Source: Pseudomonadota bacterium
GTDB taxonomy: Bacteria > Desulfobacterota > Desulfobulbia > Desulfobulbales > SURF-16
Assembly (NCBI GenBank): GCA_018897105.1
Contig: JAHILF010000090.1
Span: 1 to 58,797 of the forward strand
Length of the DNA stretch: 58,797 nt
Direction of reading: 5' to 3'
Shown here: positions 4,321 to 36,098 of the stretch, in pieces
Numbering within the stretch: position 1 is the stretch's first letter
How the letters are laid out: the number at the start of each line of letters is the position of its first letter
Translations under genes and position numbers: made by a program
Notes under the pieces: generated by a model
What the model was told of the DNA's origin: nothing
What the model saw: only the letters and a program-made list of their open reading frames with translations
Database searches by the model: none

Positions 4321-6279
4321 ATGGATACCTTTTTTCTGTCTCTTGCTGTGATAATATGTGGCGGCGTTCTGCCTCTCATCATGCATCGGCATTTCACTAT
4401 TATGAAAGCAGGCTGCTGCGTCCTGATTGCCGCCGGTTGCATGCTGGGATTCATTGACGCCCTTTCCTTGCTCTTGCACCCAGGTGTTGCCGCGACATAT
4501 TCCCTGCCGTGGTTGCATATCTTTACTTTGTCCTTTCAGATGGACAGTATATCCGCTTTTTTTCTTGTGCCGATTTTTATTATTTCACCGCTGGCCGTGC
4601 TGTATAGCTTCCATTATATGGAAAAACCGGAGCATTCCTTCAGAACAGCGATCAATTATTTCTTTAACGCGATCCTGATTGTTTCCATGGCCCTGGTTGC
4701 CTGTGCAGACAATATTCCCACCTTTGCCCTGGCCTGGGAAATCATGTCGATTTCTTCATATTTTCTTGTCGTCTATGACTATCAAAATAAAGAAACCAGA
4801 CAGGCCGGCTACCTTTATTTTATCTTTGCCCAAGGCGGTGCCATGTTTCTTTTTGCCGCCTTTGCACTTATCTACTGCTATACCGGCAGTTTTGCTTTCA
4901 CAGGATTTGCGGCAATTCCCGACACGGTAAAACTCGTGGTTTTTGTCCTTGCTTTTATCGGCTTCGGCTCCAAAGCAGGCATCTTTCCGCTGCATATCTG
5001 GCTGCCTTACGCTCATCCAGCTGCCCCAAGTCATATTTCTGCGGTCATGTCCGGAGTGATGATCAAGATGGGCATTTATGGTATCATCCGCATTTATGCC
5101 CTGCTCGCTGTACCCTCCATGATTTTTGGCCAGATAGTCTTGATTGTCGGCATGGTAACTGGTGTTCTTGGGGTGGTGTATGCCCTTGGCAACCAGGATG
5201 TGAAAAAGCTGTTGGCCTATAGCAGTGTCGAGAATATCGGGATTATTCTGATCGGTCTCGGCGTGGGCATGATCGGGGTGGCTAGCGGAACCGATGCCAT
5301 GGCCTTTTTTGGTTTTGCCGGCGCCTTCATGCATGTTTTTAATCATTCGATATTCAAATCCCTGCTCTTTATGGGGGCCGGGGCTGTACTGCATAAGGCA
5401 AAAACACGATCTATCGATCAGCTGGGGGGATTGTTAAAAAGAATGCCTGTCACAGGCCGCACCTTTCTGGTCGGCTCTCTGGCAATTTCAGGCCTCCCGC
5501 CATTCAGTGGCTTTATCGGTGAATTTCTCATCTATTATGCCAGTTTTCAGGGGATTCATCTCCAGCGCACCGCGTTTATTCTCTCCGCCCTTGCCATCAT
5601 ATCTCTGGCCGTAATCGGAGGACTTGCCACTGCCTGCTTTACCAAGGTGGTGGGCCTTGCATTTTTGGGTGAGCCGCGGACCGATAAGGCCGCTCATGCA
5701 AGCGAAGTTGGTTTTTCCATGAAGTTGACCATGATTTTTCTTGCCGCGGCATGTCTGCTGATCGGTATTCTGCCGGAACCTTTTGTCCGGTTGGCTTTTA
5801 GGGGCATTGCCGATCTTCCGTTAGTGGGCACTTATAACCCTGATATTTTTATGGATATCCTGCGTAACATCGCCAAAACAGCTGCTCTTTTTATTGCCCT
5901 GTTTCTTGCCGTTTCGATCTTGCGTAAGCTGCTTTACTGGCGCAAGGAAGTCAGTGCCGGGCCAACCTGGGGATGTGGTTTTACCAGGCCCACTGTTAGA
6001 ATGCAGTATACCGGTACTTCCTATGCCGCTTCCATGATCGATTTTTACCGGCCGTTTGTGCCGGTAAAGACTTTGTATTCTGGGATCAGAAAGATTTTTC
6101 CGGGACAAACCACTTATCATACCGAGGTAATTGATGTCGCTGAAACCAATATGCACGGGAAAATAGTCAGACCGCTTTTTAAACTGCTGCAAATGCTGCA
6201 CTGGATTCAGCATGGCCATATTCAGCTCTATATCGGTTATATCGTTCTGACGATTGTCGTGATGTTGTTGTTTCTCTAA
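4321..6279 (+). CDS. Ehr complex antiporter-like membrane subunit, HyfB/HycC type
   Basis: A 652-residue polytopic membrane protein of the NuoL/M/N (Mrp antiporter) family, closest in size and order to hydrogenase-4 component B. Such subunits move protons or sodium ions when the peripheral redox arm turns over. About 14 membrane segments can be read. The family core spans roughly residues 100-420 and carries conserved membrane Glu, Lys and His residues (LAWEIMSISSYF, GSKAGIFPLHIWLPYAHP, DVKKLLAYSSVENIG). The C-terminal 200 residues form the extra helix and tail seen in HyfB-like subunits. The start ATG has a GGGGG ribosome site 8 bases upstream. It is the first gene of a tight six-gene operon. 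Confidence 0.88.
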   Translation: MDTFFLSLAVIICGGVLPLIMHRHFTIMKAGCCVLIAAGCMLGFIDALSLLLHPGVAATYSLPWLHIFTLSFQMDSISAFFLVPIFIISPLAVLYSFHYMEKPEHSFRTAINYFFNAILIVSMALVACADNIPTFALAWEIMSISSYFLVVYDYQNKETRQAGYLYFIFAQGGAMFLFAAFALIYCYTGSFAFTGFAAIPDTVKLVVFVLAFIGFGSKAGIFPLHIWLPYAHPAAPSHISAVMSGVMIKMGIYGIIRIYALLAVPSMIFGQIVLIVGMVTGVLGVVYALGNQDVKKLLAYSSVENIGIILIGLGVGMIGVASGTDAMAFFGFAGAFMHVFNHSIFKSLLFMGAGAVLHKAKTRSIDQLGGLLKRMPVTGRTFLVGSLAISGLPPFSGFIGEFLIYYASFQGIHLQRTAFILSALAIISLAVIGGLATACFTKVVGLAFLGEPRTDKAAHASEVGFSMKLTMIFLAAACLLIGILPEPFVRLAFRGIADLPLVGTYNPDIFMDILRNIAKTAALFIALFLAVSILRKLLYWRKEVSAGPTWGCGFTRPTVRMQYTGTSYAASMIDFYRPFVPVKTLYSGIRKIFPGQTTYHTEVIDVAETNMHGKIVRPLFKLLQMLHWIQHGHIQLYIGYIVLTIVVMLLFL

Positions 6280-6327
6280 AATTTGAGAATAACCAGGCAC
6301 ATCCTGCAAAATCAATAGAGGTAATTG

Positions 6328-7245
6328 ATGGAATCAATAGTATCATTCTGCTTTGCAATACTTGCTGCGCCTCTCCTGTCGGCAATTATTATGAAAGTAA
6401 AGGCCTATATTGCCGGGAGGAAGGGACCCCCCATTCTGATAAAATACTATACTCTTGCCAAGCTGTTTAAAAAGGGTTCCGTGTACAGTACCAGCTCAAG
6501 TTTTGTTTTTAAGCTGGGGCCTGTGGTTTCCTTCTGCAGTGTTCTTATGGTGCTGCTTTTTTTTCCCTTCGCCGGCATAAAACCGCTCTTGTCCTTTCAT
6601 GGTGACGTGATCATACTCCTTTATCTTATGGGGCTTGGCCGATTCTTCACCATTATAGCCGCCCTTGACACGGCTTCGCCCTTTGAGGGCATGGGTGCGG
6701 CCAGAGAGGCCTACTTTTCCACTCTTGCCGAGGCGACACTTTTCGTTATTCTGTTGCTTTTTTTCCGGTTGAACGGGGCTTTCAGCTTTGCAGCCTTCTT
6801 CACAGGGCCAACTGCCATCAACCTGTGGAGCCCGGCGGCGTCCCTGCTGCTGCTCGTCATTGTCGCCTTGTTTGTCGTTCTATTGACGGAAAACTCCAGG
6901 GTGCCGGTGGATGATCCGGCTACTCATCTTGAGTTGACCATGATTCACGAGGTCATGATTCTTGATCACAGCGGGCCGGATCTTGCCCTTATTGAACTGG
7001 GCGCCTACCTGAAATTGTTTTTTTATTCCGCCTTTATCACCTGCCTGCTTTATCCCTTTCAACTGGATAACGTCTATCTGAACGGCCTGATTTTCTACGG
7101 TATCATGGGCCTGATTTACGTACTGGTGGGGATAACGGAATCCATTATGGCCAGATACAAGATGAATCTGGTACCAAAGTTTATTCTGACCTCCTTTGCT
7201 CTGGTATTTTTTGCGACCATTCTTACCATGGAGTTCGTCCAATGA
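6328..7245 (+). CDS. Ehr complex membrane subunit, HyfC/HycD (NuoH-like)
   Basis: A 305-residue membrane protein of the NuoH/HycD family, which anchors the redox arm to the membrane and forms part of the coupling channel. It has about eight membrane helices. Typical family segments are AYIAGRKGPPILIKYYTLAK (residues 25-45), the cytoplasmic loop with DTASPFEGMGAAREAYFS (around residue 115) and the ENSRVPVDDPATHLELTMIHE stretch (around 190), which touches the large subunit in related complexes. ATG at 6328 is preferred over the TTG three bases earlier because AGAGG lies 7 bases before it. The stop overlaps the next start by 4 bp, implying translational coupling. Confidence 0.88.
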   Translation: MESIVSFCFAILAAPLLSAIIMKVKAYIAGRKGPPILIKYYTLAKLFKKGSVYSTSSSFVFKLGPVVSFCSVLMVLLFFPFAGIKPLLSFHGDVIILLYLMGLGRFFTIIAALDTASPFEGMGAAREAYFSTLAEATLFVILLLFFRLNGAFSFAAFFTGPTAINLWSPAASLLLLVIVALFVVLLTENSRVPVDDPATHLELTMIHEVMILDHSGPDLALIELGAYLKLFFYSAFITCLLYPFQLDNVYLNGLIFYGIMGLIYVLVGITESIMARYKMNLVPKFILTSFALVFFATILTMEFVQ

Positions 7246-7895
7246 TACAGCTTTCCGATGCAATACTGTCCCTTGTGCTGCTATCTGTTCTTTTGTCATT
7301 AAGCTCAAACAGGCTTATGGGGTTGGTCAGGATAATGGCCTTTCAAGGCATTCTGGTTTCCCTGGTGCCATTGTTTCTTGATCAACATCAGGGAATAGGC
7401 GCCGGCAGTATTCTTTTTCTGCAGATCATGATTCTGATTAAAGGGATCCTTATCCCCGGTTTTATGTATATTGCCGTCAATAAGGTAAAAATCAGAACGG
7501 AGGTCGAGCCGTTTGTCGGCTATCATGCCTCACTTTTTACCGGTTTGGCGTTTATCGTCATTTCAGCCTATATTACGGAACGGCTGAATATTTCCCTTCC
7601 CGGCGGTCATGCACTTCTGCTGATTACCGCCATCACCACTATGGCCTCAGGTCTTTTTTTGCTGATGGCCCGGCGCAAGGCAATTACCCAGGTTATTGGT
7701 TACCTGATGATGGAAAATGGTATTTATCTTGTGGGTGCGGCATTGGCAAAGGAATCTCATACTCAGTATGTGGTTGAATTCGGCGTGCTGCTCGATCTGT
7801 TGGTCGGTGTTATGATTATGGGTATTGTTCTGCATAACATCAACAGCGCTTTTGACGATGTGGACACCGCACTGCTTGGACGATTAAAGGATTGA
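7242..7895 (+). CDS. Ehr complex membrane subunit, HyfE-like
   Basis: A 217-residue protein with six to seven predicted membrane helices, matching hydrogenase-4 component E in length and operon position. HyfE resembles a NuoK domain with an extra N-terminal part and sits between the NuoH-like subunit and the antiporter-like subunits. Recognisable is the C-terminal half with YLMMENGIYLVGAAL and the Glu-containing helix typical of NuoK. Its ATG overlaps the previous stop, and only 4 bases separate its stop from the next start. Its exact role in coupling is not established in any hydrogenase-4-type complex. Confidence 0.8.
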   Translation: MIQLSDAILSLVLLSVLLSLSSNRLMGLVRIMAFQGILVSLVPLFLDQHQGIGAGSILFLQIMILIKGILIPGFMYIAVNKVKIRTEVEPFVGYHASLFTGLAFIVISAYITERLNISLPGGHALLLITAITTMASGLFLLMARRKAITQVIGYLMMENGIYLVGAALAKESHTQYVVEFGVLLDLLVGVMIMGIVLHNINSAFDDVDTALLGRLKD

Positions 7896-7899
7896 GAAT

Positions 7900-9327
7900 A
7901 TGTTAGAACTGGTTTTCCTCATACCCCTGTTTGCCGGAATAATGGCAACATTCCTCCCTGTGAAGCTCGGCAGGATCATTCTTGTCATCACCGCCCTTTT
8001 GCATGTGCAGCTCACCGGGATGTGCTGGCTGAAGATCTCGGCGCCGATGTTTGATGCTTATTTCCGCGCGACTCCGGAAGGCACTCTGGTGCTTCTGGTC
8101 ACCTCCTTTATCTTTCTGTTCATCTCCATTTATAGCGTTTCCTATATGAGAGAGACGGAAATGGAAAATGAGCATGTTTTTATTGGTTGTATGCTTTTTT
8201 TCCTGGCTGCCATGAGCATGGTGACTCTGGCTGATCATCTTATAGTCCTGTGGATAGCCATCGAGGCCACCACTCTGGTCAGCGCCCCATTGATCTTTGT
8301 GCATCGGTCCAAAGAAGCTCTGGAGGCAACCTGGAAATACGTACTGATCTGCTCAGTGGGCATTGCCTTGGCTCTCCTCGGGTCTTTCTTTATCACCCTG
8401 TCCATGGACATCGGCCAGGTGGATGTTCCGCTGGCCTTTTCCGCACTGCAGGCCGTGGCCGCAAATCTCGATCCGGTCTGGCTCAAGGCGGGATTTGTTT
8501 TTGTGGTCATCGGTTACGGCACCAAGATGGGACTGGCGCCCATGCATACCTGGCTGCCAGACGCCCACAGCGAGTCTCCCAGCCCTGCATCAGCCCTTTT
8601 GTCAGGTGCTCTGCTGAACTGCGCGTTTCTCGGAGTCTATAAGACGCACACCCTGCTCTATGCTGCCGGGCTCGGCACCTATTCGAGCAATGTCCTTATA
8701 GTTTTCGGTCTGGTGTCCATGTCCGTTGCCGCGGTTTTTATTATGAATCAGACCGACTACAAGCGGATGCTGGCTTACTCGAGTATCGAAAACATGGGTA
8801 TCATAGCCTTCGGTATCGCCATCGGGGGATTGGGTACGTACGGGGCCATGCTGCATCTGATCCATCACTCGCTGATTAAATCCTCCCTGTTTCTGTCGTC
8901 CGGCAATATTTTGCTCGGCTACGGTACGAAACTGATCAAAAACACAGGCAATATGGCGAAGCTGCTGCCCAAGACCTTTCTTGCCTTTTTTGCCGGTTTT
9001 GCCGGGATCTCCGGTTTCCCGCCTTTCGGCATCTTCATCAGTGAACTGCTGATCATCATCGGTGCTTTTCGCAGTGGGCGTTTTGTGAGCATCGGCATTT
9101 TTATTTTCTGTCTGATCCTTATTTTTGCCGGCGCTGCGCGTCTCGTCATGCGCATGTCATTTGCCCAGCATGATGAGGACATTCTGGTGCAGGAAAAAAT
9201 GCTGAGGATCCTGCCCTCCTATGCCCTTTTGTTGACCTCCGCGATCCTCTGTGTGTGGCTCCCGGAAAGTCTTTATCAAACTATTATCAACGCAATCACA
9301 GCTATCGGGGGTGGGTTGAATGGATAA
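7900..9327 (+). CDS. Ehr complex antiporter-like membrane subunit, HyfF type
   Basis: A 475-residue NuoL/M/N-family membrane protein, the second antiporter-like subunit of the complex. It contains the usual markers: the EATTLVSAPLIF glutamate helix (around residue 125), GTKMGLAPMHTWLPDAHSES (around 207), the lysine-bearing TDYKRMLAYSSIENMG (around 287) and ISGFPPFGIFISE (around 370). Having both HyfB- and HyfF-like subunits suggests two ion paths per complex. The last 8 bp overlap the next gene, which continues the pattern of coupled translation through the operon. Confidence 0.87.
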   Translation: MLELVFLIPLFAGIMATFLPVKLGRIILVITALLHVQLTGMCWLKISAPMFDAYFRATPEGTLVLLVTSFIFLFISIYSVSYMRETEMENEHVFIGCMLFFLAAMSMVTLADHLIVLWIAIEATTLVSAPLIFVHRSKEALEATWKYVLICSVGIALALLGSFFITLSMDIGQVDVPLAFSALQAVAANLDPVWLKAGFVFVVIGYGTKMGLAPMHTWLPDAHSESPSPASALLSGALLNCAFLGVYKTHTLLYAAGLGTYSSNVLIVFGLVSMSVAAVFIMNQTDYKRMLAYSSIENMGIIAFGIAIGGLGTYGAMLHLIHHSLIKSSLFLSSGNILLGYGTKLIKNTGNMAKLLPKTFLAFFAGFAGISGFPPFGIFISELLIIIGAFRSGRFVSIGIFIFCLILIFAGAARLVMRMSFAQHDEDILVQEKMLRILPSYALLLTSAILCVWLPESLYQTIINAITAIGGGLNG

Positions 9328-10828
9328 CCTCCTTAAAATTGGCAATGGTGAAATAGTAAAACGAAGCGATATCCCGCATCTGTCCTTTGATGTTTTTCGC
9401 CGGGAATTACTCGATTTTGCCGTTAATGGCGGGCAGGTTGTCCACTATTTTGCCTATGAGGATGACGGCGTACTCAAGGTCATGGCTGTCTTACGCAATG
9501 ATGACGGTCTGTACGTTACCGGCAGCGATGTTGCCGAAGCCTATCATGCCTTGACCGCGGACTGCGAGAAATTCCACATGTTCGAGCGGGAGATCGCCGA
9601 ACAGTACGGGGTCCGGCCGAATGATCATCCGTGGCTGAAACATGTCCGCTATCATGCCAATTACCGGAACAGGGAGGATGTCTTTGGCAATGATTACAGC
9701 CAGGACATCCCCGGCAATTACGAATATTTTCCGGTGGAAGGCGATGCAATTCACGAAGTAGCTGTGGGGCCGGTGCATGCTGGTATCATCGAACCAGGGC
9801 ATTTTCGATTTCAGTGCATCGGCGAAGAGGTTCTTCACCTGGAGATCCAGCTCGGCTATCAGCATCGTGGCGTGGAGAAAATGCTGCTTGAGGTGCCGAG
9901 GAAACGGATGCCCGTTATCGTGGAAGGCATTGCCGGTGATACGGCTATCGGCCACAGTCTCTGCTACGCCCAGGCCATGGAAGCCCTGGGCTCTGTTGCT
10001 GTTGATCAAGGGGCCAGAATCGTCCGCTCCATCGCCCATGAGCTGGAACGTCTTGCCAACCATATCGGCGATCTTGGCGCCCTGAGCGGTGACGTGGCCT
10101 TTAACCCTCCGGCTGCCTATTTTGGCCGGCTCAGAGGGGAGTTTCTCAATCTCCTTATGGTGCTCTCCGGTAACCGTTTCGGTAAAGGCCTTGTCCGTCC
10201 TGGTGGCGTTGCCTATACCATGGGCCAGGAGCAGCGTCAGCTCCTGATCGACAAAATAAAGGAAACGAAGCCTGAGGTCGAGCATGTCTGTGATCTGTTG
10301 TTTACGGCCCACACCGTCCAGGCCCGTTTTGATCTCACGGGAACAGTGGACAGGGAAACGGCAGAGAAGCTCGGCCTTGTCGGGTATTCTGGTCGAGCCT
10401 CAGGTCTTGCTTATGATGCACGGGTCAGTTTTCCCACCGAATGCTATGCTGAGTTGCCGGCTAATATGAATCATAAGACCGATGGTGATGTCGCCAGCAG
10501 GGCAACGGTCCGCAGAGAGGAAATCGAACACTCCTTTCTTTTGATTGAAACGCTGCTGGCAAAAAATGTCGAAACGGAAAGTGTTCTGGCTGGCGAGTGC
10601 AAACTTGCGCCCTCCTCCTTTGTCGTCACCATCAATGAAGGCTGGCGGGGAGAAATTTCCCATTGCCTGCTGACAGATGCGGAAGGCGGGATTCTGCGCT
10701 ACAAGGTCAAAGATCCTTCATTTCACAACTGGACAGGACTGGCCATGTCGCTTCGCAATCAGGGGATATCGGATTTTCCGCTCTGCAACAAAAGCTTTAA
10801 CCTCTCCTATTGTGGCTTTGATCTGTAA
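9320..10828 (+). CDS. Ehr complex large subunit: NuoC-NuoD fusion lacking the NiFe-binding cysteines
   Basis: A 502-residue protein with an N-terminal NuoC-like domain (about 1-140) and a C-terminal hydrogenase-large-subunit/NuoD domain, laid out as in HyfG and HycE. In true group 4 hydrogenases the NiFe site is held by an RxCGxC motif and a DPCxxC motif. Here the first region reads EGIAGDTAIGHS (around residue 202) with no CxxC. The second reads SFNLSYCGFDL at the very C-terminus, with no DPCxxC, although the ISDFPL segment that precedes it is intact. The subunit therefore cannot bind a normal NiFe centre and more likely forms a quinone-like or unknown substrate pocket, as in the Ehr group of complexes. 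Confidence 0.88.
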   Translation: MDNLLKIGNGEIVKRSDIPHLSFDVFRRELLDFAVNGGQVVHYFAYEDDGVLKVMAVLRNDDGLYVTGSDVAEAYHALTADCEKFHMFEREIAEQYGVRPNDHPWLKHVRYHANYRNREDVFGNDYSQDIPGNYEYFPVEGDAIHEVAVGPVHAGIIEPGHFRFQCIGEEVLHLEIQLGYQHRGVEKMLLEVPRKRMPVIVEGIAGDTAIGHSLCYAQAMEALGSVAVDQGARIVRSIAHELERLANHIGDLGALSGDVAFNPPAAYFGRLRGEFLNLLMVLSGNRFGKGLVRPGGVAYTMGQEQRQLLIDKIKETKPEVEHVCDLLFTAHTVQARFDLTGTVDRETAEKLGLVGYSGRASGLAYDARVSFPTECYAELPANMNHKTDGDVASRATVRREEIEHSFLLIETLLAKNVETESVLAGECKLAPSSFVVTINEGWRGEISHCLLTDAEGGILRYKVKDPSFHNWTGLAMSLRNQGISDFPLCNKSFNLSYCGFDL

Positions 10829-10903
10829 GGGCTTGGTTTCGATTCTTTAAGCAGATACCTGCATATCGTTGCTTTTTTGCACAAAGCCAATGAGGATTTT
10901 GGA

Positions 10904-11647
10904 ATGTTGAAAATAATACAGAATAGAATGGAACAGGGGTGCCGTACCTCAAAATATCCGAAGACCCCGATTACTCTTAATAAGAGATATCGGGGCCTGC
11001 CGAAAATTCACAAGAATTGCCCGGCATCACTTAAGAAAAAATGTGCAGACCAGTGCCCGCAGGATGCGATTGATGCCGATAATGGTTTGATTGATCTCGG
11101 CCGCTGTGTTTTTTGCGGACATTGCGAAACCCTGTCAAAGGGTGATTTTGTCCAGTTCACCCAGAATTTTGAACTCGGCGTTGCCAAAAAAGAACATCTG
11201 CTGACAGATGGCAACCTGCCCCGGCTTGCCGAGCATGCCAAGGCCCATTTTAAAAAGCTGTTTGGCCGCTCCCTCCAACTACGCCAGGTTTCCGCAGCCG
11301 GTTGCAACTCCTGCGAAGCCGATACCAACGTTTTAAATACTCCATTTTTTGATCTTGCCCGGTTTGGCATCCAGTTTGTCGCCTCTCCCCGGCATGCCGA
11401 TGGCATTCATGTTACCGGGCCGATCTCCAGGAACATGCAGGCCGCACTGCTGACCACTTATGAGGCTGTTCCGTCGCCGAAGGTTGTTATTGCCAGCGGC
11501 AGCTGTTCCATTTCCGGCGGGCCTTTCCGGGGAAGCCCTGAAGTTGTCGGCGACCTGAACAGCTTGCTTCCCGTGGATCTCTATATTCCAGGCTGCCCGC
11601 CCCACCCGCTCACCACCCTGCATGCCCTGCTGAATTATTTCAAATAA
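10904..11647 (+). CDS. Ehr complex small subunit: ferredoxin-like domain fused to HyfI/NuoB-like domain
   Basis: A 247-residue protein joining two roles that are separate genes (HyfH and HyfI) in E. coli hydrogenase 4. Residues about 35-80 form a ferredoxin-like region with cysteines 39, 47, 51, 68, 71 and 74; C51, C68, C71 and C74 can hold one [4Fe-4S] cluster, and a second site would be incomplete. Residues 128-247 are the HyfI/HycG-type small subunit, with proximal-cluster cysteines C134 and C137 (GCNSC), C201 (GSCSISGG) and C231 (PGCPPHP). ATG 10904 is chosen over the TTG at 10877 because TGAGGA lies 6 bases before it. It is the last gene of the operon. Confidence 0.83.
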   Translation: MLKIIQNRMEQGCRTSKYPKTPITLNKRYRGLPKIHKNCPASLKKKCADQCPQDAIDADNGLIDLGRCVFCGHCETLSKGDFVQFTQNFELGVAKKEHLLTDGNLPRLAEHAKAHFKKLFGRSLQLRQVSAAGCNSCEADTNVLNTPFFDLARFGIQFVASPRHADGIHVTGPISRNMQAALLTTYEAVPSPKVVIASGSCSISGGPFRGSPEVVGDLNSLLPVDLYIPGCPPHPLTTLHALLNYFK

Positions 11648-11649
11648 AA

Positions 11650-11698
11650 AAAAGCAATTCGCTCACCGGTGCTTTTTTTAGTGAGTGAATTGCTTTTT
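11650..11698 (+). terminator. Terminator of the Ehr operon
   Basis: Arms at 11650-11666 and 11681-11697 are 17 bp long and complementary apart from one G-U pair; both ends are A/T runs, so it could work in both directions. It lies directly after the last Ehr gene and separates it from the carbonic anhydrase gene. Confidence 0.85.
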
Positions 11699-11980
11699 CA
11701 GTATGAATCACATCCCCCGTTTTTCCTCGAATATCACTGAGTTGTTTATATCATAGTTGGGTCAGTATTTTTTTTCTACTGCTCATTTTAGTGGTAAGGC
11801 TCGTTGAGCCATCGTCGTTGTATGCCCATCCGTGAGAAATGACAAGTCGGGGCATTATTTTTAATTCTTGACCTGTATAAATTTTCCATCTATTTAATTG
11901 AGTAGTTTTACCCAAAAAATTTGCGGGAGATGTATTTTAAATGACAAAATAAAAATGTGAGGCAAAGGGGGATTCGACAA

Positions 11981-13162
11981 ATGTTCAGGCAATACCGGGA
12001 GTACTATGTGACGAGAAAGTTGGCGCCATTCAAGGTTGACGGTCTGGCAATGCCCTATCCGGAGTTTGTTCCCAGGCTCTATAACTTCTGCAAAGCCCTT
12101 GGCTTCAGAAAAGGGTTGATCATGCCGTCCAGGGCTTTTTGTTCGGATGAAAATCAAGGCCTGCCCATTATCCTTCTCACCAAGCATTTTGGCATTTTCC
12201 CCTTTAATCATGGCCGTGTTGGCGGCATTATGGCCATAGACAGACACGGTCCCCACTCCCATCATGGGGAGGATCTCGTCATTGTCCAGGCAAGCCATGT
12301 GGGCTACGATCCGGAAACAGGCATTTATGGAAAATACGCCCGTCCCCAGCGGATAGGTAAATGTGTCGGCGACTCCTGCGGCAAACTCACCCATGTCATT
12401 ACGCCCTATCTGGAACAATACCAGTTTGCCAAAGAGCGCATTTTCCTGCACCGTGACGAACAGGGCAGATATCTGATCACCGTCAAGAATACCTTTGTCG
12501 ACTTTGCCTTTCACCCGGTCAAGGATGGCCTGGTCCTGCGTTTGCAGAATATTGCCAAGATGGACAATGGCGGCGTAATCCGCCCTGTTACCGCCGCAAG
12601 CACCTCACAGGTCTACGAAGTATCGGATGGGTTCATACAGCGTACAGCTGCCGCCAACTATCAATGGAAGGGCGGGGCTGGGGAACCCATCGGCGACCTG
12701 TTGACCGAAGAATTGTTTTTCTTCCGGGAAGATTTTCATGAAACAGATGAATCGATCCTGCTGGAAAGAAATATCATCGAATTCATGCCAAGAATCGTTA
12801 CTTCCAGAAATCCTCCACTGCGGGCGGCCAAGATCAACCTCCAGCTGGAATTTACCCGGGTAGTGGAATCCATTCGGCGCGGCACGGAATACAAAGGGAG
12901 AAATCTTCTCTATATCGCCGGCCTGAATCTCGATATATCGGAATATGACGATTTTCCGGCAACGAACTATTTTGTTCCCTGGGCAGCCCATATTCAGCTG
13001 GAGGGTGAAGGCTCTAGCGAACATGCCCATCCCATGGAGCAGGATGAACTGTATGCCAATCTGATGACACACAGCATCGTGAATCCTGATCAGGTTAATC
13101 TGAAGGAGGAGATCGGCAGGATGTTGAAGATGCCGCATTTTGATATTCGTTCACCCAAGTAA
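11981..13162 (+). CDS. LCIB/C-like (theta-type) carbonic anhydrase
   Basis: A 393-residue soluble protein whose N-terminal 150 residues resemble the algal LCIB/LCIC carbonic anhydrase family. Shared elements, as I recall that family, are a CDE-N cysteine motif (here FCSDENQG, C54), an HH pair (HSHHGED), a GPHVG-D-like zinc histidine (SHVGYD, H106) and a following Cys before Gly (DSCGK, C133). The C-H-C spacing of 52 and 27 residues fits the zinc ligands described for theta-class enzymes. It would interconvert CO2 and bicarbonate in the cytoplasm. The C-terminal 240 residues are not recognised. ATG 11981 is preferred over GTG 11957 because AAGGGGG precedes it. It lies 334 bp after the Ehr operon, beyond a terminator. 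Confidence 0.65.
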   Translation: MFRQYREYYVTRKLAPFKVDGLAMPYPEFVPRLYNFCKALGFRKGLIMPSRAFCSDENQGLPIILLTKHFGIFPFNHGRVGGIMAIDRHGPHSHHGEDLVIVQASHVGYDPETGIYGKYARPQRIGKCVGDSCGKLTHVITPYLEQYQFAKERIFLHRDEQGRYLITVKNTFVDFAFHPVKDGLVLRLQNIAKMDNGGVIRPVTAASTSQVYEVSDGFIQRTAAANYQWKGGAGEPIGDLLTEELFFFREDFHETDESILLERNIIEFMPRIVTSRNPPLRAAKINLQLEFTRVVESIRRGTEYKGRNLLYIAGLNLDISEYDDFPATNYFVPWAAHIQLEGEGSSEHAHPMEQDELYANLMTHSIVNPDQVNLKEEIGRMLKMPHFDIRSPK

Positions 13163-18892: not shown

Positions 18893-21052
18893 ATGATATA
18901 CAAAATTTTCCCCTTTCTTGCCTGGTTCACCGATTATGATGCCGGCAAATTCAAAGCAGACCTGATGGCCGGCATTACCGTTGCCCTGGTCCTGATTCCT
19001 CAGTCCATGGCCTATGCCCAGCTCGCTGGACTGCCTCCTTATTACGGATTGTATGCCGCCTTTCTGCCACCCATGGTGGCCTCGCTTTTCGGCTCCAGCC
19101 GCCAGCTCGGCACCGGACCTGTGGCGGTAGTGTCGCTCATGTCCGCGGCATCCCTTGCACCTCTTGCCACCGCAGGATCCGCGGAATTCATCGCCTATTC
19201 GATCGTTCTTGCCGCAGTCGTCGGTATCTTCCAGTTTTCTCTCGGCGTTCTGCGCCTGGGCCTGGTGGTGAATTTTCTTTCCCACCCGGTGGTAAACGGC
19301 TTCACCAATGCGGCGGCCATTATCATTGCCACATCCCAGTTCTCCAAATTTTTCGGGGTCTATGTCGACACGGCACCGCACCATTATCAAACCATGGTCA
19401 ATGTCTTTCAGGCGGCCATGGATTATACCCATATCACGACCTTGATTTATGGTGTCGCCGCCGTGGTCATCATGGTGGTGCTCAAGAAAATCAACCGCCG
19501 CATCCCCAATGTTCTGGTGGCGGTTGCCGTTACCACCCTCATTTCCTACTACACCGGTTACAATAAAGACGCCTATGTTGATCTTTCCGCCCTTCGTCTT
19601 GACGGCCTTCAGCAACAGGTTGCTGATTACAACGCCATGCAAAATGAAATAAAAACATTGGGTGAGGAACGGGCGGCCATAAGCCTTCAGGTGGAAGAAG
19701 AGCGGAAAAACATCAAGGCAAAAGGACATGGCACCACCTCGTTTGAGCTGATCAAACTGAAGGGCGAAGTCGATACCCTGGAAGTAAAGATGGAAGAAGC
19801 AAAGAAACATGCTGCAGATATCCGTGGTGCGGTCCGCAAGATGAAATTTGAAGGGGTGAAAGAGGGGGAAAATTATACCTTCTATCCCCAAGATGCTATC
19901 CCTGCCGGGGTCCAGACCGATGGCAACATCTGGCGCATCAGGATAAGAAATGCAGCCCTTGACACCGCAAAGGTCAGGGTCATGGGCGGCGGTGACGTGG
20001 TCGGCGAGATTCCCAAGGGGCTGCCGAAATTCACCATTCCGCAGCTGACTCCGGCAAACTTCTTCAAGGTGCTGCCCATGGCGGTAATTATTTCCCTGCT
20101 TGGTTTCATGGAGGCAATCGCCATTGCCAAGGCCATGGCCGCCAAGACCGGCCAGAAAATCGATCCCAACCAGGAGCTCATCGGCCAGGGCATGGGCAAC
20201 ATGCTCGGTGCGCTGACTTCCAGCTTTGCGACATCCGGCTCCTTTTCCCGTTCCGCGGTTAACCTGCAGGCCGGCGCGGTTTCCGGTATTTCCGCGGTTG
20301 TCACCTCGCTTATGGTTGTCGCCACCCTGTTGTTTTTTACGCCGCTGCTTTACCATCTGCCCCAGGCCGTGCTGGCCGCGGTCATCATGATGGCCGTTGT
20401 CGGGCTGATCAACATTAAGGGCTTTGCCCATGCCTGGAAGGCGCAATGGTATGATGGCGCCATTTCCGTTCTCAGTTTTCTTGTGACCCTTTACTTTGCT
20501 CCCCATCTTGATAAGGGCATCATGGTCGGTGTGGGCCTTTCCATGGGCGTGTTCCTCTATAAATCCATGCGGCCGGTGGTGGCCAGCCTGTCGATGCATG
20601 AGGAAAACGTGCTGAAAAGCGCTGAATACTATCGCCTGAAGGGCTGCCGGCATATCTCCGTAGTCCGCTTTGACGGCGCATTATTTTTTGCCAATGCCAG
20701 CTATCTCGATGAGCAGGTAATGAAATTCCGCAACGAACAGCCGGACCTGCGCTATATCCTGCTGGATGCCAGGGGCATCAATGATATGGATGCCTCCGGT
20801 GAGGAGGCCTTGGAGTTGCTTGTTGAGCGGGTGCGCAGTGCGGGGCTTGGTTTTGCCATGTCCGGCGTCAAGGGGCAGGTGATGGTTGTCATGCAGCGCA
20901 CCGGTTTGCTGGATAAAATCGGCAAGGATAGTCTATTCCCCGATACGGAACATGCGGTGAAGACCATTATTAAGAAAATTCATACCACCAGCAGCGGCCT
21001 TCCAACCGAAGGTTGCAAGGATTGCCCCTTAACCAAATATATTCCTGTTTAA
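18893..21052 (+). CDS. SulP-family anion transporter with a coiled-coil insertion and STAS domain
   Basis: A 719-residue SulP (SLC26-like) transporter. Members carry sulfate, bicarbonate or other anions in exchange with or together with H+ or Na+. The N-terminal signature is DLMAGITVALVLIPQSMAYA (around residue 23), with about 12 membrane helices. The C-terminal STAS domain occupies about 570-690 and contains the DARGINDMDASGEEAL motif. Between the helix ending near residue 220 and the usual GEIPKGLPKF segment (around 370) lies an extra stretch of about 140 residues rich in Glu, Lys and Leu heptads, probably a coiled coil outside the membrane. Substrate cannot be told from sequence; sulfate or bicarbonate are both plausible here. 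A terminator follows. Confidence 0.87.
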   Translation: MIYKIFPFLAWFTDYDAGKFKADLMAGITVALVLIPQSMAYAQLAGLPPYYGLYAAFLPPMVASLFGSSRQLGTGPVAVVSLMSAASLAPLATAGSAEFIAYSIVLAAVVGIFQFSLGVLRLGLVVNFLSHPVVNGFTNAAAIIIATSQFSKFFGVYVDTAPHHYQTMVNVFQAAMDYTHITTLIYGVAAVVIMVVLKKINRRIPNVLVAVAVTTLISYYTGYNKDAYVDLSALRLDGLQQQVADYNAMQNEIKTLGEERAAISLQVEEERKNIKAKGHGTTSFELIKLKGEVDTLEVKMEEAKKHAADIRGAVRKMKFEGVKEGENYTFYPQDAIPAGVQTDGNIWRIRIRNAALDTAKVRVMGGGDVVGEIPKGLPKFTIPQLTPANFFKVLPMAVIISLLGFMEAIAIAKAMAAKTGQKIDPNQELIGQGMGNMLGALTSSFATSGSFSRSAVNLQAGAVSGISAVVTSLMVVATLLFFTPLLYHLPQAVLAAVIMMAVVGLINIKGFAHAWKAQWYDGAISVLSFLVTLYFAPHLDKGIMVGVGLSMGVFLYKSMRPVVASLSMHEENVLKSAEYYRLKGCRHISVVRFDGALFFANASYLDEQVMKFRNEQPDLRYILLDARGINDMDASGEEALELLVERVRSAGLGFAMSGVKGQVMVVMQRTGLLDKIGKDSLFPDTEHAVKTIIKKIHTTSSGLPTEGCKDCPLTKYIPV

Positions 21053-21320: not shown

Positions 21321-22190
<870 letters not shown>

Positions 22191-22194
22191 CTTT

Positions 22195-22610
22195 CTGACA
22201 TGTCTTCCCTGCCGGAAGAATTAGGCGAAGTTGAGGCCATATTGGCCGATGCCGGTTATTATAGTGATAGCAACGCGTCAGCTTGGGAAAAAGCTGGTAT
22301 AGAGCCATTCATTCCACCACGTCGGGAAAAACATAACCAACCTCTTGCCAGCCGATTTGCCAAACCCGGACCTCTGCCGGCGTAGGCAGACCCAATCAGC
22401 AAAATGAAGCATAAACTTAAAACAGCTGATGGCCGGGCACTATACGCAAAACGGAAATGTACCATAGAACCATTATTCGTATTCGGCATCATCAAACATG
22501 TGATGGGATTCCGGCAATTTCTATTGCGGGGCTTTAAGGCGGTTACTGGCGAGTGGACACGTGTGTCCATAGCCTGGAACATTAAGCGGATGTTTGCCTT
22601 AAATATCTAA
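22195..22610 (+). mobile_element. Transposase C-terminal fragment, IS1182-like, with a stop codon
   Basis: Translating this stretch gives the last 135 or so residues of a DDE transposase. ADAGYYSDSN, a GIEPFIPPRRE segment, KTADGRALYAKRKCTIEPLF, IIKHVMGFRQFLLRG and AWNIKRMF match the C-terminal pattern of IS1182-type transposases. An in-frame TAG at 22383-22385 splits the reading frame, and the N-terminal two thirds are missing. The left end joins the truncated receiver domain of cheB directly at about 22190. No terminal inverted repeat could be placed. It is a decayed remnant. Confidence 0.75.
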
Positions 22611-28544: not shown

Positions 28545-28801
28545 CTTTTTCCTCCCTCGAACATGGTATTTTCAATTAGTTTGGATTAATTCGAACATTA
28601 CTGTACATTGCTGTATTTCCCAGTAAAAAATGCCTGAGGTGATTCCCCTCTTGTATTCTTATTTTGCCTAAAGGTCGAGAAGAGACACTGGATGAGTGCC
28701 GGCAGGCTCTGCTAGGCGCTGACCACAAGAGAAAAACACACCTGGGACACCAAGGACGAACACGCGATAGACAACACACTAACGGCATTCAGGAATTTTT
28801 C

Positions 28802-31054
28802 ATGCAAAACTCACAACACCAAAACCTCGTCGGCTTCATCTGGAATATCGCCAACAAGCTGCGTGGTCCCTACCGCCCGCCGCAGTACCGACGCGTGATG
28901 TTGCCGCTGATTGTCCTGCGCCGCTTTGATCTGGTGCTGGCTGAGAACAAACAGAAGGTGCTCGACGAAAAGAAGCGGCTGGAAGACAAAGGCATCACCG
29001 GCCCGGCGCTGGATAAGGCCCTGTCGCGTATCGCCGCCACCGACCGCAAGCAAGAGCTGTTCAACACCAGCGGCTTCACCTTTGAAAAGTTGCTGGGCGA
29101 CGCCCCCAACATCGCGGGCAACCTGATCGCCTACATCCAGGGCTTCTCGCCGCGCGCCCGCGACATCTTCGACAAGTTCGAGTTTGAAACCGAGATCGCC
29201 AAGCTCGACGAAGCCAACCGCCTGTTCTTGATCATCAGGGAGTTCTGTTCGGCAGACATCACCCTGTCGCCCAAGGCCATCAGCAATTTGCAGATGGGCT
29301 ACCTGTTCGAAGAGCTGGTGCGCAAGTTCAACGAGCAAGCCAACGAAGAGGCCGGGGATCACTTCACGCCGCGTGAAGTCATTCGCCTGATGGTGCAGTT
29401 GCTGTTCACCGGCGAGAAAGGTATCTACGAGAAAGGCATCTACCGCAGCGTGTACGACCCGACTGCCGGTACCGGCGGCATGTTGTCGGAGTCGGAGAAA
29501 TTCATCTGCGGCGACGGCCAGACCAGCGGGCTCAATCCGGATGCCCACATCGAGCTGTTCGGCCAGGAGTACAACCCCGAGGCCTACGCCATCTGCTGTT
29601 CTGATTTGCTGATTAAAGATGAGCCGATTGGCAACCTGATCTATGGCGATACCCTGGGGCTCAAGGACGCCAAGAACAAGACCAATGGCTTCGTGCCGCA
29701 CGACGGCCACCAGGATAAGAAATTCCACTACATGCTGGCCAACCCGCCGTTCGGTGTGGAGTGGAAGCCGGAAGAAGACTTCGTGCGCGAAGAGTACCAA
29801 GACCAGGGCTTTTCTGGCCGCTTTGGCGCCGGCCTGCCGCGCATCAACGACGGCTCGCTGCTCTTTTTGCAGCACATGATCTCCAAGATGCACAACCCGC
29901 CCAAGTTGGTCGAAGGCAAGAGCGTGGGCGGCGACGGCTCCAAGATTGCCATCGTCTTCAACGGTTCGCCCATGTTTACCGGTGATGCCGGATCGGGTGA
30001 GTCCAATATCCGCCGCTGGATTATCGAACGCGACATGCTCGATGCCGTGGTCGCCCTGCCAGACCAGATGTTCTACAACACCGGCATTTACACCTACGTC
30101 TGGATCGTCACCAACAAGAAGACCGCCCATCGCTGCGGCCGCGTGCAGTTGATCGACGGCACCCGGCATTTCAAGAAGATGGACAAGAGCCTGGGCAACA
30201 AGCGCAATGAGTTGTCGGACGACCATATCAAGGACTTGGTGCGCCTGTACGCCGAGCATGACCACGAAGGAACCAGCGAAGTGCTGCCCCAAGACAATAA
30301 AACAGTGGGCAAGCCCGAGCGCCGGGTGTGCAGTAAGCTATTTGCTAACCGGGAGTTCGGCTTTCTCAAAATCACCGTCGAGCGGCCGCTGCGCCTGAAC
30401 TTCCAAGTGAGCGGTGAGCGCATCGAGAGGCTGGATGATCAGAGCGCCTTCGCCAATCTGGCCAGCAGCAAGAAGCGCAAGGACGAGGCCGCCTATCGCG
30501 CCGAAGTCGCTGCCGGGCAAGTAGCCCAGGCCGCGATCAAAGCCGCCCTGCAAGGCATGGATGGTGAAATGCTCTACCGCAACCGCCCTGCCTTCGAGTC
30601 AGTGCTCGAAGCCGCCTTGAAAAAGGCCGGCATCAAGGTCGGCGCCCCGGTCAAGAAGGCTATGCTGGCGGCGCTGTCCGAGCGTGACCCCAAGGCAGAC
30701 ATTTGCCTGGACGCCAAAGGCAAGCCCGAACCCGATGCCGAGCTGCGGGACACCGAAATCGTGGCCTTGCCGGCTGACATTACCTTGCCGTTGCCGCTGG
30801 GCTACGACAACGAAACCGGTCACGACAGGCTGCTGGCCTTGGTGCGAAACCACTGCGAGCACTACCTCAAGGCCGAAGTCCTGCCACACGTTGCCGATGC
30901 CTGGATTGACCACGGCAAAACCAAGGTTGGCTACGAGATCCCGCTGACCCGCCATTTCTATGTCTATCAGCCGCCGCGCCCGCTGGAGGAGATTGCGGGC
31001 GAAATCAGCCAGCTGGAAAAAGAGATCATGGCCATGTTGCGCGAGGTGGTGTGA
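28802..31054 (+). CDS. hsdM: Type I restriction-modification system, methylase subunit HsdM
   Basis: A 750-residue N6-adenine methyltransferase subunit that, with HsdS, methylates the recognition site. The N-terminal helical HsdM_N domain occupies about residues 1-150. The SAM motif DPTAGTGGML is at about 218 and the catalytic NPPFGVEW at about 313. The C-terminal 250 residues carry an additional alpha-helical part that pairs with HsdS. ATG 28802 (sequence MQNSQHQNLVGFIWNIANKL) is the family start. An upstream extension in the same frame to 28664 lacks a ribosome site. hsdS overlaps its stop codon. Codon use is more GC-rich than the neighbouring chromosome, suggesting transfer. Confidence 0.95.
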   Translation: MQNSQHQNLVGFIWNIANKLRGPYRPPQYRRVMLPLIVLRRFDLVLAENKQKVLDEKKRLEDKGITGPALDKALSRIAATDRKQELFNTSGFTFEKLLGDAPNIAGNLIAYIQGFSPRARDIFDKFEFETEIAKLDEANRLFLIIREFCSADITLSPKAISNLQMGYLFEELVRKFNEQANEEAGDHFTPREVIRLMVQLLFTGEKGIYEKGIYRSVYDPTAGTGGMLSESEKFICGDGQTSGLNPDAHIELFGQEYNPEAYAICCSDLLIKDEPIGNLIYGDTLGLKDAKNKTNGFVPHDGHQDKKFHYMLANPPFGVEWKPEEDFVREEYQDQGFSGRFGAGLPRINDGSLLFLQHMISKMHNPPKLVEGKSVGGDGSKIAIVFNGSPMFTGDAGSGESNIRRWIIERDMLDAVVALPDQMFYNTGIYTYVWIVTNKKTAHRCGRVQLIDGTRHFKKMDKSLGNKRNELSDDHIKDLVRLYAEHDHEGTSEVLPQDNKTVGKPERRVCSKLFANREFGFLKITVERPLRLNFQVSGERIERLDDQSAFANLASSKKRKDEAAYRAEVAAGQVAQAAIKAALQGMDGEMLYRNRPAFESVLEAALKKAGIKVGAPVKKAMLAALSERDPKADICLDAKGKPEPDAELRDTEIVALPADITLPLPLGYDNETGHDRLLALVRNHCEHYLKAEVLPHVADAWIDHGKTKVGYEIPLTRHFYVYQPPRPLEEIAGEISQLEKEIMAMLREVV

Positions 31055-32403
31055 TGGGATATGCCCAATACAGTGAGTTGGATAGCTCCGGGGTCGCATG
31101 GCTGCAAGATAAGCCCCTTCATTGGCGAGTCAAAAGACTAAAGTTTTCGGTCGATCTCATCAATATCAAAGTAAGCGTTGAAGAGTCATCTTTGCCTTAT
31201 CTCGGTCTCGAACACATCGAGTCGTGGACAGGGAGAAAGATCGACGGTGAAATTAGCAATAGCGAAGGGGTGGCATCGTCGTATTTGGCAGGAGACGTAC
31301 TGTTCGGGAAGTTGCGACCGTATCTGGCCAAAGTTCACTTGGCTCAACAGAATGGATTGATTTCGAGCGAAGCGTTGGTCGTAAGAAGTAAGGCTGAATT
31401 GCATGCCGAGTTTCTGAAGTACTACATGCTTTCCCGTGATTTCATCAATATCGTTGATTCATCAACCTATGGCAGCAAAATGCCGCGAGCCAGTTGGAAT
31501 TTCATTGGAAACCTCCCGGTACTGTTGCCCGAGATTGAAGAACAGCAAACCATCGCCCACTTCCTAGATTTCAAGACCGCCCAAATCGATGCCCTGATTG
31601 CCAAGCAGAAAGCCTTGCTCGACAAGCTGGCCGAAAAACGCACCGCGCTGATCAGCCATGCCGTCACCAAGGGGCTTGATCCCTCGGCGCCGATGAAGGA
31701 TTCGAAAGTAGAGTGGTTGGGAAGTGTTCCATCTCATTGGAAGCGTGGAGTTAAGTTGAATTATATGGCTGCTCAGCAAAGGCACTCATTTGTAAATGGC
31801 CCATTTGGAAGTGATCTACTGTCATCCGAACTAACTGATGATGGTGTGCCGGTCATTTACTCAGGTGATGTCAAGCCAAACAGATTCTTCAGAAAATCAT
31901 CAAGCTACGTCACGGAAGAAAAAGCTGAACAGTTAAATTTTTGTCGCGTTGATCCGGGTGATTTGCTCTTGGCAAAAGTTGGAGATCCTCCTGGGGATGC
32001 CGCAATATATCCTGAAGATGCTCCGAGTGGGATAGTTACCCAAGATGTTGTTAGGATAAAACTAAACGATGAAATTGCGGACAGTCAGTATTTGACGCTG
32101 CTTTTTAATTCAAAATACGGTCGTTTTGTAATCAGAACAGTTTCGGTGGAGGCAACAAGGGGAAGATTTTCCCTTGGAGATTTCAAGTCGCTTAGATTTG
32201 TGATGCCGCCATTGAATGAGCAGCGTCAAATCGCGGGAGCATTAATTAGCCAAATCCGCCCAATTCTTGATCAGGAAGATAAAGTACTTGAAGTTATCGC
32301 AAAACTACAGGAATACAGGTCAGCTCTGATAACCAATGCCGTCACCGGCAAAATCGACGTGCGTGGTTTTCAAATCCCACAGCCGGCCCAAGGTATGGCC
32401 TGA
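31054..32403 (+). CDS. hsdS: Type I restriction-modification system, specificity subunit HsdS
   Basis: A 449-residue specificity subunit with two target-recognition domains (about 20-165 and 225-390), each followed by a conserved helical spacer. The repeats EEQQTIAHFLD (around 162) and NEQRQIAGAL (around 387) mark the end of each recognition domain. Each recognition domain reads one half of a bipartite site; the actual bases cannot be predicted by eye. The recognition domains are noticeably AT-rich against the GC-rich spacers, as expected of shuffled domains. ATG 31054 overlaps the hsdM stop in TGATG. A frameshifted gene lies between it and hsdR. Confidence 0.93.
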   Translation: MGYAQYSELDSSGVAWLQDKPLHWRVKRLKFSVDLINIKVSVEESSLPYLGLEHIESWTGRKIDGEISNSEGVASSYLAGDVLFGKLRPYLAKVHLAQQNGLISSEALVVRSKAELHAEFLKYYMLSRDFINIVDSSTYGSKMPRASWNFIGNLPVLLPEIEEQQTIAHFLDFKTAQIDALIAKQKALLDKLAEKRTALISHAVTKGLDPSAPMKDSKVEWLGSVPSHWKRGVKLNYMAAQQRHSFVNGPFGSDLLSSELTDDGVPVIYSGDVKPNRFFRKSSSYVTEEKAEQLNFCRVDPGDLLLAKVGDPPGDAAIYPEDAPSGIVTQDVVRIKLNDEIADSQYLTLLFNSKYGRFVIRTVSVEATRGRFSLGDFKSLRFVMPPLNEQRQIAGALISQIRPILDQEDKVLEVIAKLQEYRSALITNAVTGKIDVRGFQIPQPAQGMA

Positions 32404-32422
32404 TGAGGGGAGGCGAGTCCAA

Positions 32423-33021
32423 ATGGCGTTGAATGCACAGGGGTACTTCAACTGCTTGAAGTCCTATTTGAATACCAACCACTATGGCGCGCCGCAGGCC
32501 AGTGCCACCGAGGTGGTATTGAAGGAGAAGGTGTTCGGTCGAAGCGGCACTACGCCCATTGAATACAAGTTGAGCTTGCAGGCCACGGGCGAGACCTTGG
32601 TGATCAAGCTGGATACCAGAACGGCACCTCGCTGCCTTTGTTTCATTTCCTAGATGACACTGCCAAGCCCTGGTCGAAGCGCTGCGACTTCGTGGTGTTC
32701 AACCTGCGCAGAAACAAACTGCACGTGTACTGCCTGGAGTTCAAGTCGGAGAGCATTCCGTACGATGTGCCGGATCAGTTGAAAGCGAGTGTGGATTGGC
32801 TCAAGGCGCTGCACGCCACCATCAACGCCTACACCACCAAACGCAGCGCCATCCAGGCCACCAAGTACGTGCTGAGCAACCATCCGGACCCCAGCCCCTA
32901 TCTGGACGCGGACGGCAAGTACCTGCAGCGTGATCACACGATACGCCACTATCGTTATGCTGACGTGAATGGCATGGCGCTGGCGGATTTGGAAAACAGC
33001 AATATTGAGGTGATTCGCTAA
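32423..33021 (+). pseudogene. Frameshifted PD-(D/E)XK-like gene inside the R-M operon
   Basis: Two overlapping frames encode the halves of one protein of about 199 residues. The N-terminal half (from ATG 32423, MALNAQGYFNCLKSYLN) runs to about 32615. The continuation is found one frame over, NGTSLPLFHFLDDTAK, and reads to 33021. A one-base indel near 32605-32620 separates them. The second half contains CDFVVFNLRRNKLHVYCLEF followed by KSESI, an Asp-(about 17 residues)-ExK arrangement like the catalytic core of PD-(D/E)XK nucleases. The family is not recognised. Its place between hsdS and hsdR suggests an accessory nuclease or specificity factor; it may be inactive here, unless the indel is a sequencing error. 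Confidence 0.6.
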
Positions 33022-33056
33022 CAGGCCGAATTCAAGGCATGGAAAGGGGGAGAAAG

Positions 33057-36000: not shown

Positions 36001-36098
36001 GCCTGATGAATGACGAATCCTTCAGAAATGTAGCTGCCAGCCACTTAATGCGCGCTGTTTACCAGCAGGTTAAATCAGCCGGGGATATAGGCAAATGA
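33057..36098 (+). CDS. hsdR: Type I restriction-modification system, endonuclease/translocase subunit HsdR
   Basis: A 1013-residue HsdR, the motor and nuclease of the system. The N-terminal PD-(D/E)XK nuclease core is seen in PDVVLAVNGLPVATLELKN (around residue 135). The superfamily 2 helicase has Walker A HSAGSGKSNS (around 305), DEAH (around 423) and TATP (around 490), then motifs V and VI (QTGFDQP, QTLSRLNR). The C-terminal part binds the methylase. TTG 33057 is favoured because AGGGGGAGAAAG precedes it and the product then starts MHKEIDFEKDIE, a family N-terminus; an in-frame ATG lies 18 bp upstream. It is the last gene of the R-M locus. Confidence 0.94.
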   Translation: MHKEIDFEKDIEHALINSGGYEKGDPHTYDPEMALFPDDVVAFVQKTQPKIWTRLTQLDAAKAPKMLLDSLVKELAAKGALAILREGFKCVGKTVRLAYFAPNTGLDPSATCRYDENRLTIVRQVNTKSGAIPDVVLAVNGLPVATLELKNPMSATRWNVENAKYQYRFERDPKERLFSFKQRCLVHFAVDTEQVAMTTKLEGKDTFFLPFNLGHEHGAGNPPAAGDVRTTYLWHKVLSRDSLMDILARFIHLDVVEKTVVTAKGIKRHRKESMIFPRYHQLDAVRELTDHAQAHGSGHNYLIQHSAGSGKSNSIAWLAHRLSSLHDAGNEKIFHSVVVITDRRVLDQQLQDTIFQFEHKLGVVQKIDENTQQLAKALADGVPIIISTIQKFPFITQAIRTMEANGKNVAIATAGKRFAVIVDEAHSSQSGETAMELRKILNRDGIESAIAEQLLDMDDDALSEEAKKELLREQLKRAKQPNLSFFAFTATPKFKTLAVFNEPGPAGKAPFHHYSMRQAIEEGFIHDVLAHYTCYKRYYKLIQKVEADPEVPRRKAARALARFVEFHDYEIAQKVEVIVEHFRTHTRHKIGGRAKAMVVTGSREHAVRYKLGFDKYIKDKGYTDVKSLVAFSGEITLKEFGGRKFTEVSMNNGIKESELPEKFNTEEYQVLLVAEKYQTGFDQPLLHSMYVDKRLSGIQAVQTLSRLNRTTRGKTDTFVLDFVNEPADIYTAFKPYYETTDKGDDTDPQQLNTLAYSLEKWKVFTRAEVNDWCEIWFRNRLNPTGGEHKRLNAILDVAVDRFKELADEDQDLMKGQLQSFRNLYSFVSQIIPYQDSEHEKLYTYARFLLTKLPYTGDTRKIQVDDDVELKYYRLQKISEGAIDLSTGEPEQLYGPTEVGTGQPDEEVQLSTLVEKLNERFGTEFTPADQLFFDQVRETAVANELLRQAAMVNSIENFEPVFNKQLENLFIERMDGNEEIFVRLMNDESFRNVAASHLMRAVYQQVKSAGDIGK

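Follow-up and report, generated by a model that had tools for sequence, protein, structure and literature searches.

Carbonic anhydrases of the LCIB kind, familiar chiefly from algae, recur in CO2-using sulfur bacteria next to the complex-I-like membrane machines known as Ehr (energy-converting hydrogenase-related) complexes, a gene neighbourhood which suggests that Ehr may help in inorganic-carbon handling. Both are encoded in the 58,797-nucleotide stretch of DNA analysed here (the window; contig JAHILF010000090.1 of the Desulfobulbales assembly GCA_018897105.1, lineage SURF-16), along with a SulP anion carrier. Each of the three is known already, as is DAB, and the recurrent LCIB-Ehr pair is probably an energy-linked inorganic-carbon system. 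More specifically, we consider it slightly more probable than improbable that a cytoplasmic LCIB-type zinc carbonic anhydrase, Ehr, SulP and, often, a beta-carbonic anhydrase serve one inorganic-carbon module of Wood-Ljungdahl anaerobes.

The Ehr operon of the window comprises six forward-strand genes (4321-11647) for HyfB, HyfC, HyfE, HyfF, a NiFe-less large subunit and a HyfH-HyfI fusion. The hyfB-like gene (4321..6279) encodes an antiporter-type subunit with a Proton_antipo_M match of 193.8 bits and hydrogenase 4 subunit B as its best model, below the cut-off. It is followed by a hyfC-like gene of NuoH type (6325..7245; NADHdh, 106.8 bits), a hyfE-like gene (7242..7895; hydrogenase 4 membrane subunit model at 80.9 bits, under the cut-off of 136) and a second antiporter-type gene that is hyfF-like (7900..9327; Proton_antipo_M, 166.6 bits; best models hydrogenase 4 subunit F). 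The hyfG-like large subunit (9320..10828) was recognised by a Complex1_49kDa match of 111 bits and by alignments, and the iron-sulfur subunit is a hyfH-hyfI fusion (10904..11647; Oxidored_q6, 92.9 bits) that matches MbhJ and FHL subunit 7, with an N-terminus matching FHL subunit 6. A start at 10904 is more likely than the alternative TTG at 10877, judging by the length of 247 aa in most relatives.

Aligned to solved hydrogenases, the large subunit carries Ala205 and Thr208 in place of the N-terminal [NiFe] cysteines and a C-terminal Asn-Leu-Ser where the hydrogenases have Asp-Pro-Cys. These replaced ligands rule out a [NiFe] hydrogenase, and Ala205-Gly-Asp-Thr208, Ile157 and a C-terminal LSYCG are invariant in all 40 Ehr large subunits compared, the window's included. 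The protein also aligns with solved complex I subunits, with Ile157 and Gly206 at the positions of the quinone-site residues that we take to be named His38 and Tyr87. Because both the [NiFe] cysteines and these equivalents are replaced, the complex lacks a canonical site for hydrogen as well as one for quinone, and we know of no established function for Ehr complexes. The available text of PMC6349859 defines Ehr by group-4-hydrogenase-like subunits without Ni-Fe ligands, together with antiporter-type subunits; the window operon encodes a large subunit of that kind, without the Ni-Fe cysteines, and two Proton_antipo_M antiporter-type subunits.

The first-pass annotation had placed a terminator after this operon, and the gap indeed holds a strong terminator-like hairpin (11649..11698, forward strand; -24.2 kcal/mol, z -5.4), which was not called by a simple consensus terminator scan. 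It had also read the next gene (11981..13162, forward strand; 393 aa) as an LCIB-type protein with a Cys-His-Cys zinc arrangement directly after a NiFe-less complex, a reading borne out by the predicted fold, by ligand invariance and by the large-subunit comparison above. Translation likely begins at the ATG at 11981, behind AAAGGGGG, not at the GTG at 11957. The match of the gene (as 11957-13162) to Pfam LCIB_C_CA (PF18599) is weak and sub-threshold, at 20.8 bits against a curated cut-off of 25, and by Pfam score alone the protein would be at most a divergent member of that family; a PDB search with its sequence and profile matched no LCIB chain. In all 39 aligned LCIB sequences, Cys54 and Asp56 (Cys54-x-Asp56), His106 and Cys133 are conserved without exception, the codons of Cys54, His106 and Cys133 lying at 12140, 12296 and 12377. 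A template-free AlphaFold2 model made from this 39-protein alignment (pLDDT 83.6, pTM 0.83) gave eight Foldseek matches at E <= 0.001, seven of them LCIB/LCIC chains and the eighth 6kfs, titled CCM related protein. Structural alignment to PtLCIB4 (5b5y) reached Z 18.5 over 222 residues at 3.2 Å, and the best ordinary beta-carbonic anhydrase only Z 8.2. The predicted fold is clearly that of LCIB, and the protein is a putative zinc carbonic anhydrase: the invariance of Cys54, His106 and Cys133 fits the rule, given in the available text of PMC8132391, that theta-class zinc ligands are two cysteines and one histidine.

The nearest named kin of the window LCIB, among the best 80 of 275 loci, is from a Desulfurivibrio sp. 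MAG (L081; 92% identity). The distant LCIB of one genome (G203) first gave the impression of being degenerate, which was overturned when its zinc ligands were found in the alignment. A relic does occur in genome G080, whose sole LCIB match is a 337-aa LCIB-like protein (L057:8861-9874) that lacks the Cys54 block, His106 and Cys133 and is encoded about 36 bp before hyfB; it is the only such case, and the protein perhaps has a structural role without zinc.

A recurrent Ehr-LCIB neighbourhood had been set beforehand as a check, and it was found. In a panel of 116 relatives, own genome included, 29 genomes have an LCIB match (the G080 relic among these), and LCIB adjoins the Ehr operon in 22 of them, four times after hyfHI (the own genus, own genome included) and 18 times before hyfB. 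It lies apart from Ehr in four (G039, G063, G069, G113), and contig ends obscure the linkage in the remaining three (G003, G015, G025). Given adjacency in 22 of 29, chance neighbourhood was rejected. Named loci were drawn from the best 80 of 275 LCIB loci, a set that overlaps the panel and is thus not independent of it: among the 69 of Desulfobacterota type, the distance from LCIB to an Ehr gene is no more than 6 kb in 40 and no more than 1 kb in 39, 17 of the 69 are short of flank, 12 of the 44 that are well flanked (2.5 kb or more to either side) have no Ehr nearby, and an Ehr gene lies near LCIB in 0 of 11 gammaproteobacterial loci. LCIB stands immediately before hyfB in the cultured Desulfoprunum benzoelyticum DSM 28570 (L130) and Desulfofustis glycolicus DSM 9705 (L140), and of 35 LCIB-hyfB gaps examined with a home-made scan, 3 showed terminator-like signals. 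In two genomes, G160 and G302 (whose record is also L093), the Ehr operon that comes after LCIB belongs to a second clade, with a large subunit 48-49% identical to that of the first.

That LCIB and Ehr are neighbours through shared descent or regulation only is, in our judgement, very unlikely. Such an origin would suit the close kinship of many loci and the clustering of linkage labels on a tree of LCIB proteins (80 rows, without three short loci of the named set; a quick method with no mixture model), on which the gene order of the own genus forms one group and the linked/unlinked label requires 8 changes. It fits poorly with the persistence of the pair across changes in gene order, in the genes farther out and in the clade of Ehr, and with Ehr-linked LCIB proteins that reach down to 58% identity to the window's (L142; best 80 of 275 loci).

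Several variations on these loci were observed. Two (L042 and L097, the latter from G010) have a tandem pair of LCIB genes before hyfB, and in the MAG SZUA-615 (L085:1-3244) LCIB lies without Ehr between uvrA and an rsmB-like gene, at a place whose equivalent in the window holds Ehr plus LCIB; Ehr was there either lost or not yet gained, the MAG being 7% contaminated. The LCIB-Ehr unit is often flanked by response-regulator/sensor-kinase-like genes (for example L086, L118 and L142; families named by eye), whose neighbour clusters c6 and c7 are present in 21 and 17 clustered loci. Beside hyfB of the second Ehr clade lies a gene for a helix-turn-helix and PTS EIIA-type regulator (L204:2940-3650; Pfam-tested), with look-alikes, judged by protein start, at the same place in L199, L200 and L205-L209; phosphotransfer-linked control of Ehr is possible.

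LCIB and the window's Ehr clade (large subunit at least 57% identical) also co-occur. The clade is present in 37 of the 116 panel genomes and LCIB in 29; 26 genomes have both, 11 have Ehr without LCIB, 3 have LCIB without Ehr and 76 have neither (Fisher p 3.8e-14, kinship uncorrected), and the corresponding numbers of genera are 13, 5, 2 and 29 (Fisher p 2.6e-6, kinship uncorrected). Across a sample of the phylum LCIB is rare (6/297 genomes), being found in 2/9 genomes with the window's Ehr clade (own genome being one), 2/52 with other Ehr-type large subunits (E <= 1e-60) and 2/236 without such a match, so Ehr is commonly present without LCIB. Acetyl-CoA synthase (PF03598), encoded by 92 of the 116 panel genomes, occurs in 29/29 with LCIB vs 63/87 without (p 3.9e-4) and, within the Ehr clade, in 26/26 with LCIB vs 4/11 without (p 3.2e-5); counted by genus, the latter contrast is weak (p 0.065), and a single genus accounts for six of the seven negatives. 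Ehr alone was not associated with acetyl-CoA synthase in the panel (30/37 vs 62/79 genomes).

The SulP anion carrier of the window (18893..21052, forward strand; Sulfate_transp, 339 bits), which has a STAS domain, is possibly the bicarbonate carrier of an LCIB-Ehr module, as its gene neighbours hint. Orthologues stand directly after hyfHI in L046, L050, L052 and L071, and the one in L061 stands before hyfB; at L035 and L036, where Ehr is absent, the carrier gene borders on LCIB. Its nearest solved structure is the plant sulfate transporter 4.1 (5.1e-96), with a further match at 1.1e-24 to 6ki1, presumably BicA. A same-strand beta-carbonic anhydrase gene lies at most 350 bp upstream of SulP in at least 7 of the 50 genomes with that SulP (G008, G009, G017, G020, G065, G075 and G097 among the matches listed), and in G012, G058 and G112 such a gene also stands no more than about 450 bp behind hyfHI (among the matches listed; G058 was Pfam-checked). 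The beta type is present in 97 of 116 relatives, with four matches in the own genome, on which ground LCIB as the only carbonic anhydrase of the cell was rejected. With the beta type as the only alternative searched, LCIB was not significantly commoner in panel genomes without it (7/19 vs 22/97, p 0.16); six genomes with intact LCIB have no beta-carbonic anhydrase match (G025, G063, G069, G085, G098 and G115).

Other LCIB loci have further partners. L155, from a Thiotrichales genome, has a DAB locus that encodes DabA (769.6 bits) and four antiporter-type proteins, and LCIB follows it at a distance of about 126 bp. The gammaproteobacterial named loci come from 11 genomes, 7 of which encode DabA, and it adjoins LCIB in L155 alone. 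None of the 116 panel genomes, the own one among them, has DabA (PF10070), on which ground the window system was rejected as a DAB. In Gammaproteobacteria LCIB stands near SulP genes, SLC13 carriers and one Mrp operon, that of L254 (Pfam-checked); L263 has an Mrp look-alike. Antiporter-type genes also lie upstream of LCIB in L095. In a class sample with LCIB in 24 of 369 genomes, 23 LCIB regions were taken from 22 of the 24 (G407, which is L155, and G590 left out); they include 6 with a SulP-like match no farther than about 3.3 kb from LCIB and 2 with an SLC13 match no farther than about 4 kb, and DabA is present in none of these 23 regions, many of them shortened by contig ends. LCIB loci have in common a neighbourhood of anion carriers and antiporter-type complexes, of which Ehr is only one.

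Antiporter-type complexes as the shared element, including the Mrp operon in L254 as well as Ehr, would also suit a role in pH and proton handling, with LCIB supplying or removing protons at the cytoplasmic face of Ehr, Mrp and DAB and no special link to carbon assimilation. This we regard as distinctly unlikely, since it leaves unexplained both the SulP and beta-carbonic anhydrase neighbours and the acetyl-CoA synthase in every LCIB genome.

The first-pass annotation proposed an energised CO2 system, which is partly supported. An inorganic-carbon role gains support from the associations with SulP, beta-carbonic anhydrase, DAB and acetyl-CoA synthase; physical coupling and energised hydration are countered by the hairpin, by the 12 of 44 well-flanked Desulfobacterota-type loci without Ehr and the 0 of 11 gammaproteobacterial loci with it (best 80 of 275), and by the four beta-type matches in the own genome. 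In an energised carbonic anhydrase of this kind, LCIB would dock on Ehr at its HyfB side, and proton movement driven by redox chemistry would shift CO2 hydration, or the reverse, off equilibrium, much as in NDH-1MS/CupA or DAB though with a separate evolutionary origin. The position of LCIB directly before hyfB in 18 of the 22 linked relatives, its switch of partner to the second Ehr clade, the zinc-less protein kept before hyfB in G080 and the DAB genes ahead of LCIB in L155 all favour such docking, which we nevertheless hold to be rather unlikely: LCIB also occurs without Ehr next to SulP, SLC13 or Mrp genes, the hairpin separates the window genes, the relic is one case, and the widespread beta-carbonic anhydrases would undo an above-equilibrium bicarbonate pool. 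Equally doubtful is the wider claim that Ehr and LCIB add a third case, evolved on its own, to the energy-driven carbonic anhydrases NDH-1MS/Cup and DAB, in which LCIB would bind the antiporter end of the NiFe-less complex and conversion would drive, or be driven by, ion pumping in strict anaerobes including cable bacteria.

We return to the shared inorganic-carbon module, which builds on the computed LCIB fold and conserved ligands, the recurrent neighbourhood and the co-occurrence with Ehr and acetyl-CoA synthase, and for which we infer the enzyme activity, the ion pumping, the SulP substrate and the direction of flow. Ehr, probably the ion pump of the module, would use a cytoplasmic redox reaction to build an ion gradient that would power bicarbonate movement through SulP; LCIB and beta-carbonic anhydrase would interconvert bicarbonate and CO2 and supply the latter to Wood-Ljungdahl enzymes, of which formate dehydrogenase and CO dehydrogenase take CO2. 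The proteins would share a common task, physical contact not being required. Against this module speak the hairpin between the window genes, the 4 of 29 relatives with LCIB apart from Ehr, the 12 of 44 well-flanked named loci lacking Ehr nearby, the 11 of 37 panel genomes with the window's Ehr clade and no LCIB, the presence of LCIB in just 2 of 9 genomes of the phylum sample that have this clade, the weak by-genus contrast in acetyl-CoA synthase, and the closest solved relative of SulP, a sulfate transporter, which sulfate reducers need in any case.

In the literature covered (titles and abstract openings, with few subscription papers) we found no description of the LCIB-Ehr pair, of the acetyl-CoA synthase tie or of LCIB beside DAB. 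Experimental tests of Ehr are called for in the available text of PMC6349859, and the LCIB neighbour, SulP and acetyl-CoA synthase would give Ehr a concrete, testable role in the inorganic-carbon handling of Wood-Ljungdahl anaerobes. If true, energy-linked carbon uptake, as Rubisco organisms have it, would extend to the acetyl-CoA pathway as well, and LCIB is placed in a genetic setting with cultured hosts, the Desulfoprunum and Desulfofustis strains named above. Elsewhere the window holds what we take to be a type I restriction-modification set of M, S and R subunits (28664-36098), a 1027-aa protein that presumably is a fused HdrA/QmoB-type iron-sulfur flavoprotein (46850-49933), and a CheB-like fragment next to a transposase-like fragment (21510-22385), both probably decayed genes.

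Compared with known systems, the window complex shares the features by which PMC6349859, in its available text, defines Ehr; formate dehydrogenase is proposed there as the partner, whereas the gene that recurs beside Ehr in the present genomes is one for a carbonic anhydrase. The window SulP resembles BicA-type carriers in its match to 6ki1 and in the beta-carbonic anhydrase upstream of its orthologues, and differs from them in being closer to the plant sulfate transporter. With the LCIB/LCIC carbonic anhydrases (PtLCIB4 5b5y, LCIB 5k5w, LCIC 5b5x) the window protein shares its predicted fold, two cysteines with one histidine and the CxD motif, but it is longer (393 aa vs at most 241 residues), at most 16% identical, bacterial and encoded beside Ehr. 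DAB pairs a carbonic anhydrase fold (DabA) with a NuoL-like subunit (DabB), according to the available text of PMC13144422, a pairing echoed here in gene neighbourhood, and in L155 LCIB adjoins a DAB locus; unlike DAB, Ehr has a whole electron-transfer arm, and DabA is absent from the 116 relatives. NDH-1MS with CupA, as described in the available text of PMC6981117, joins a redox-driven complex-I-like machine to a CO2-hydrating protein that is all-helical with a His/Arg zinc site, whereas the protein encoded next to Ehr has a predicted LCIB fold and a Cys-His-Cys arrangement.
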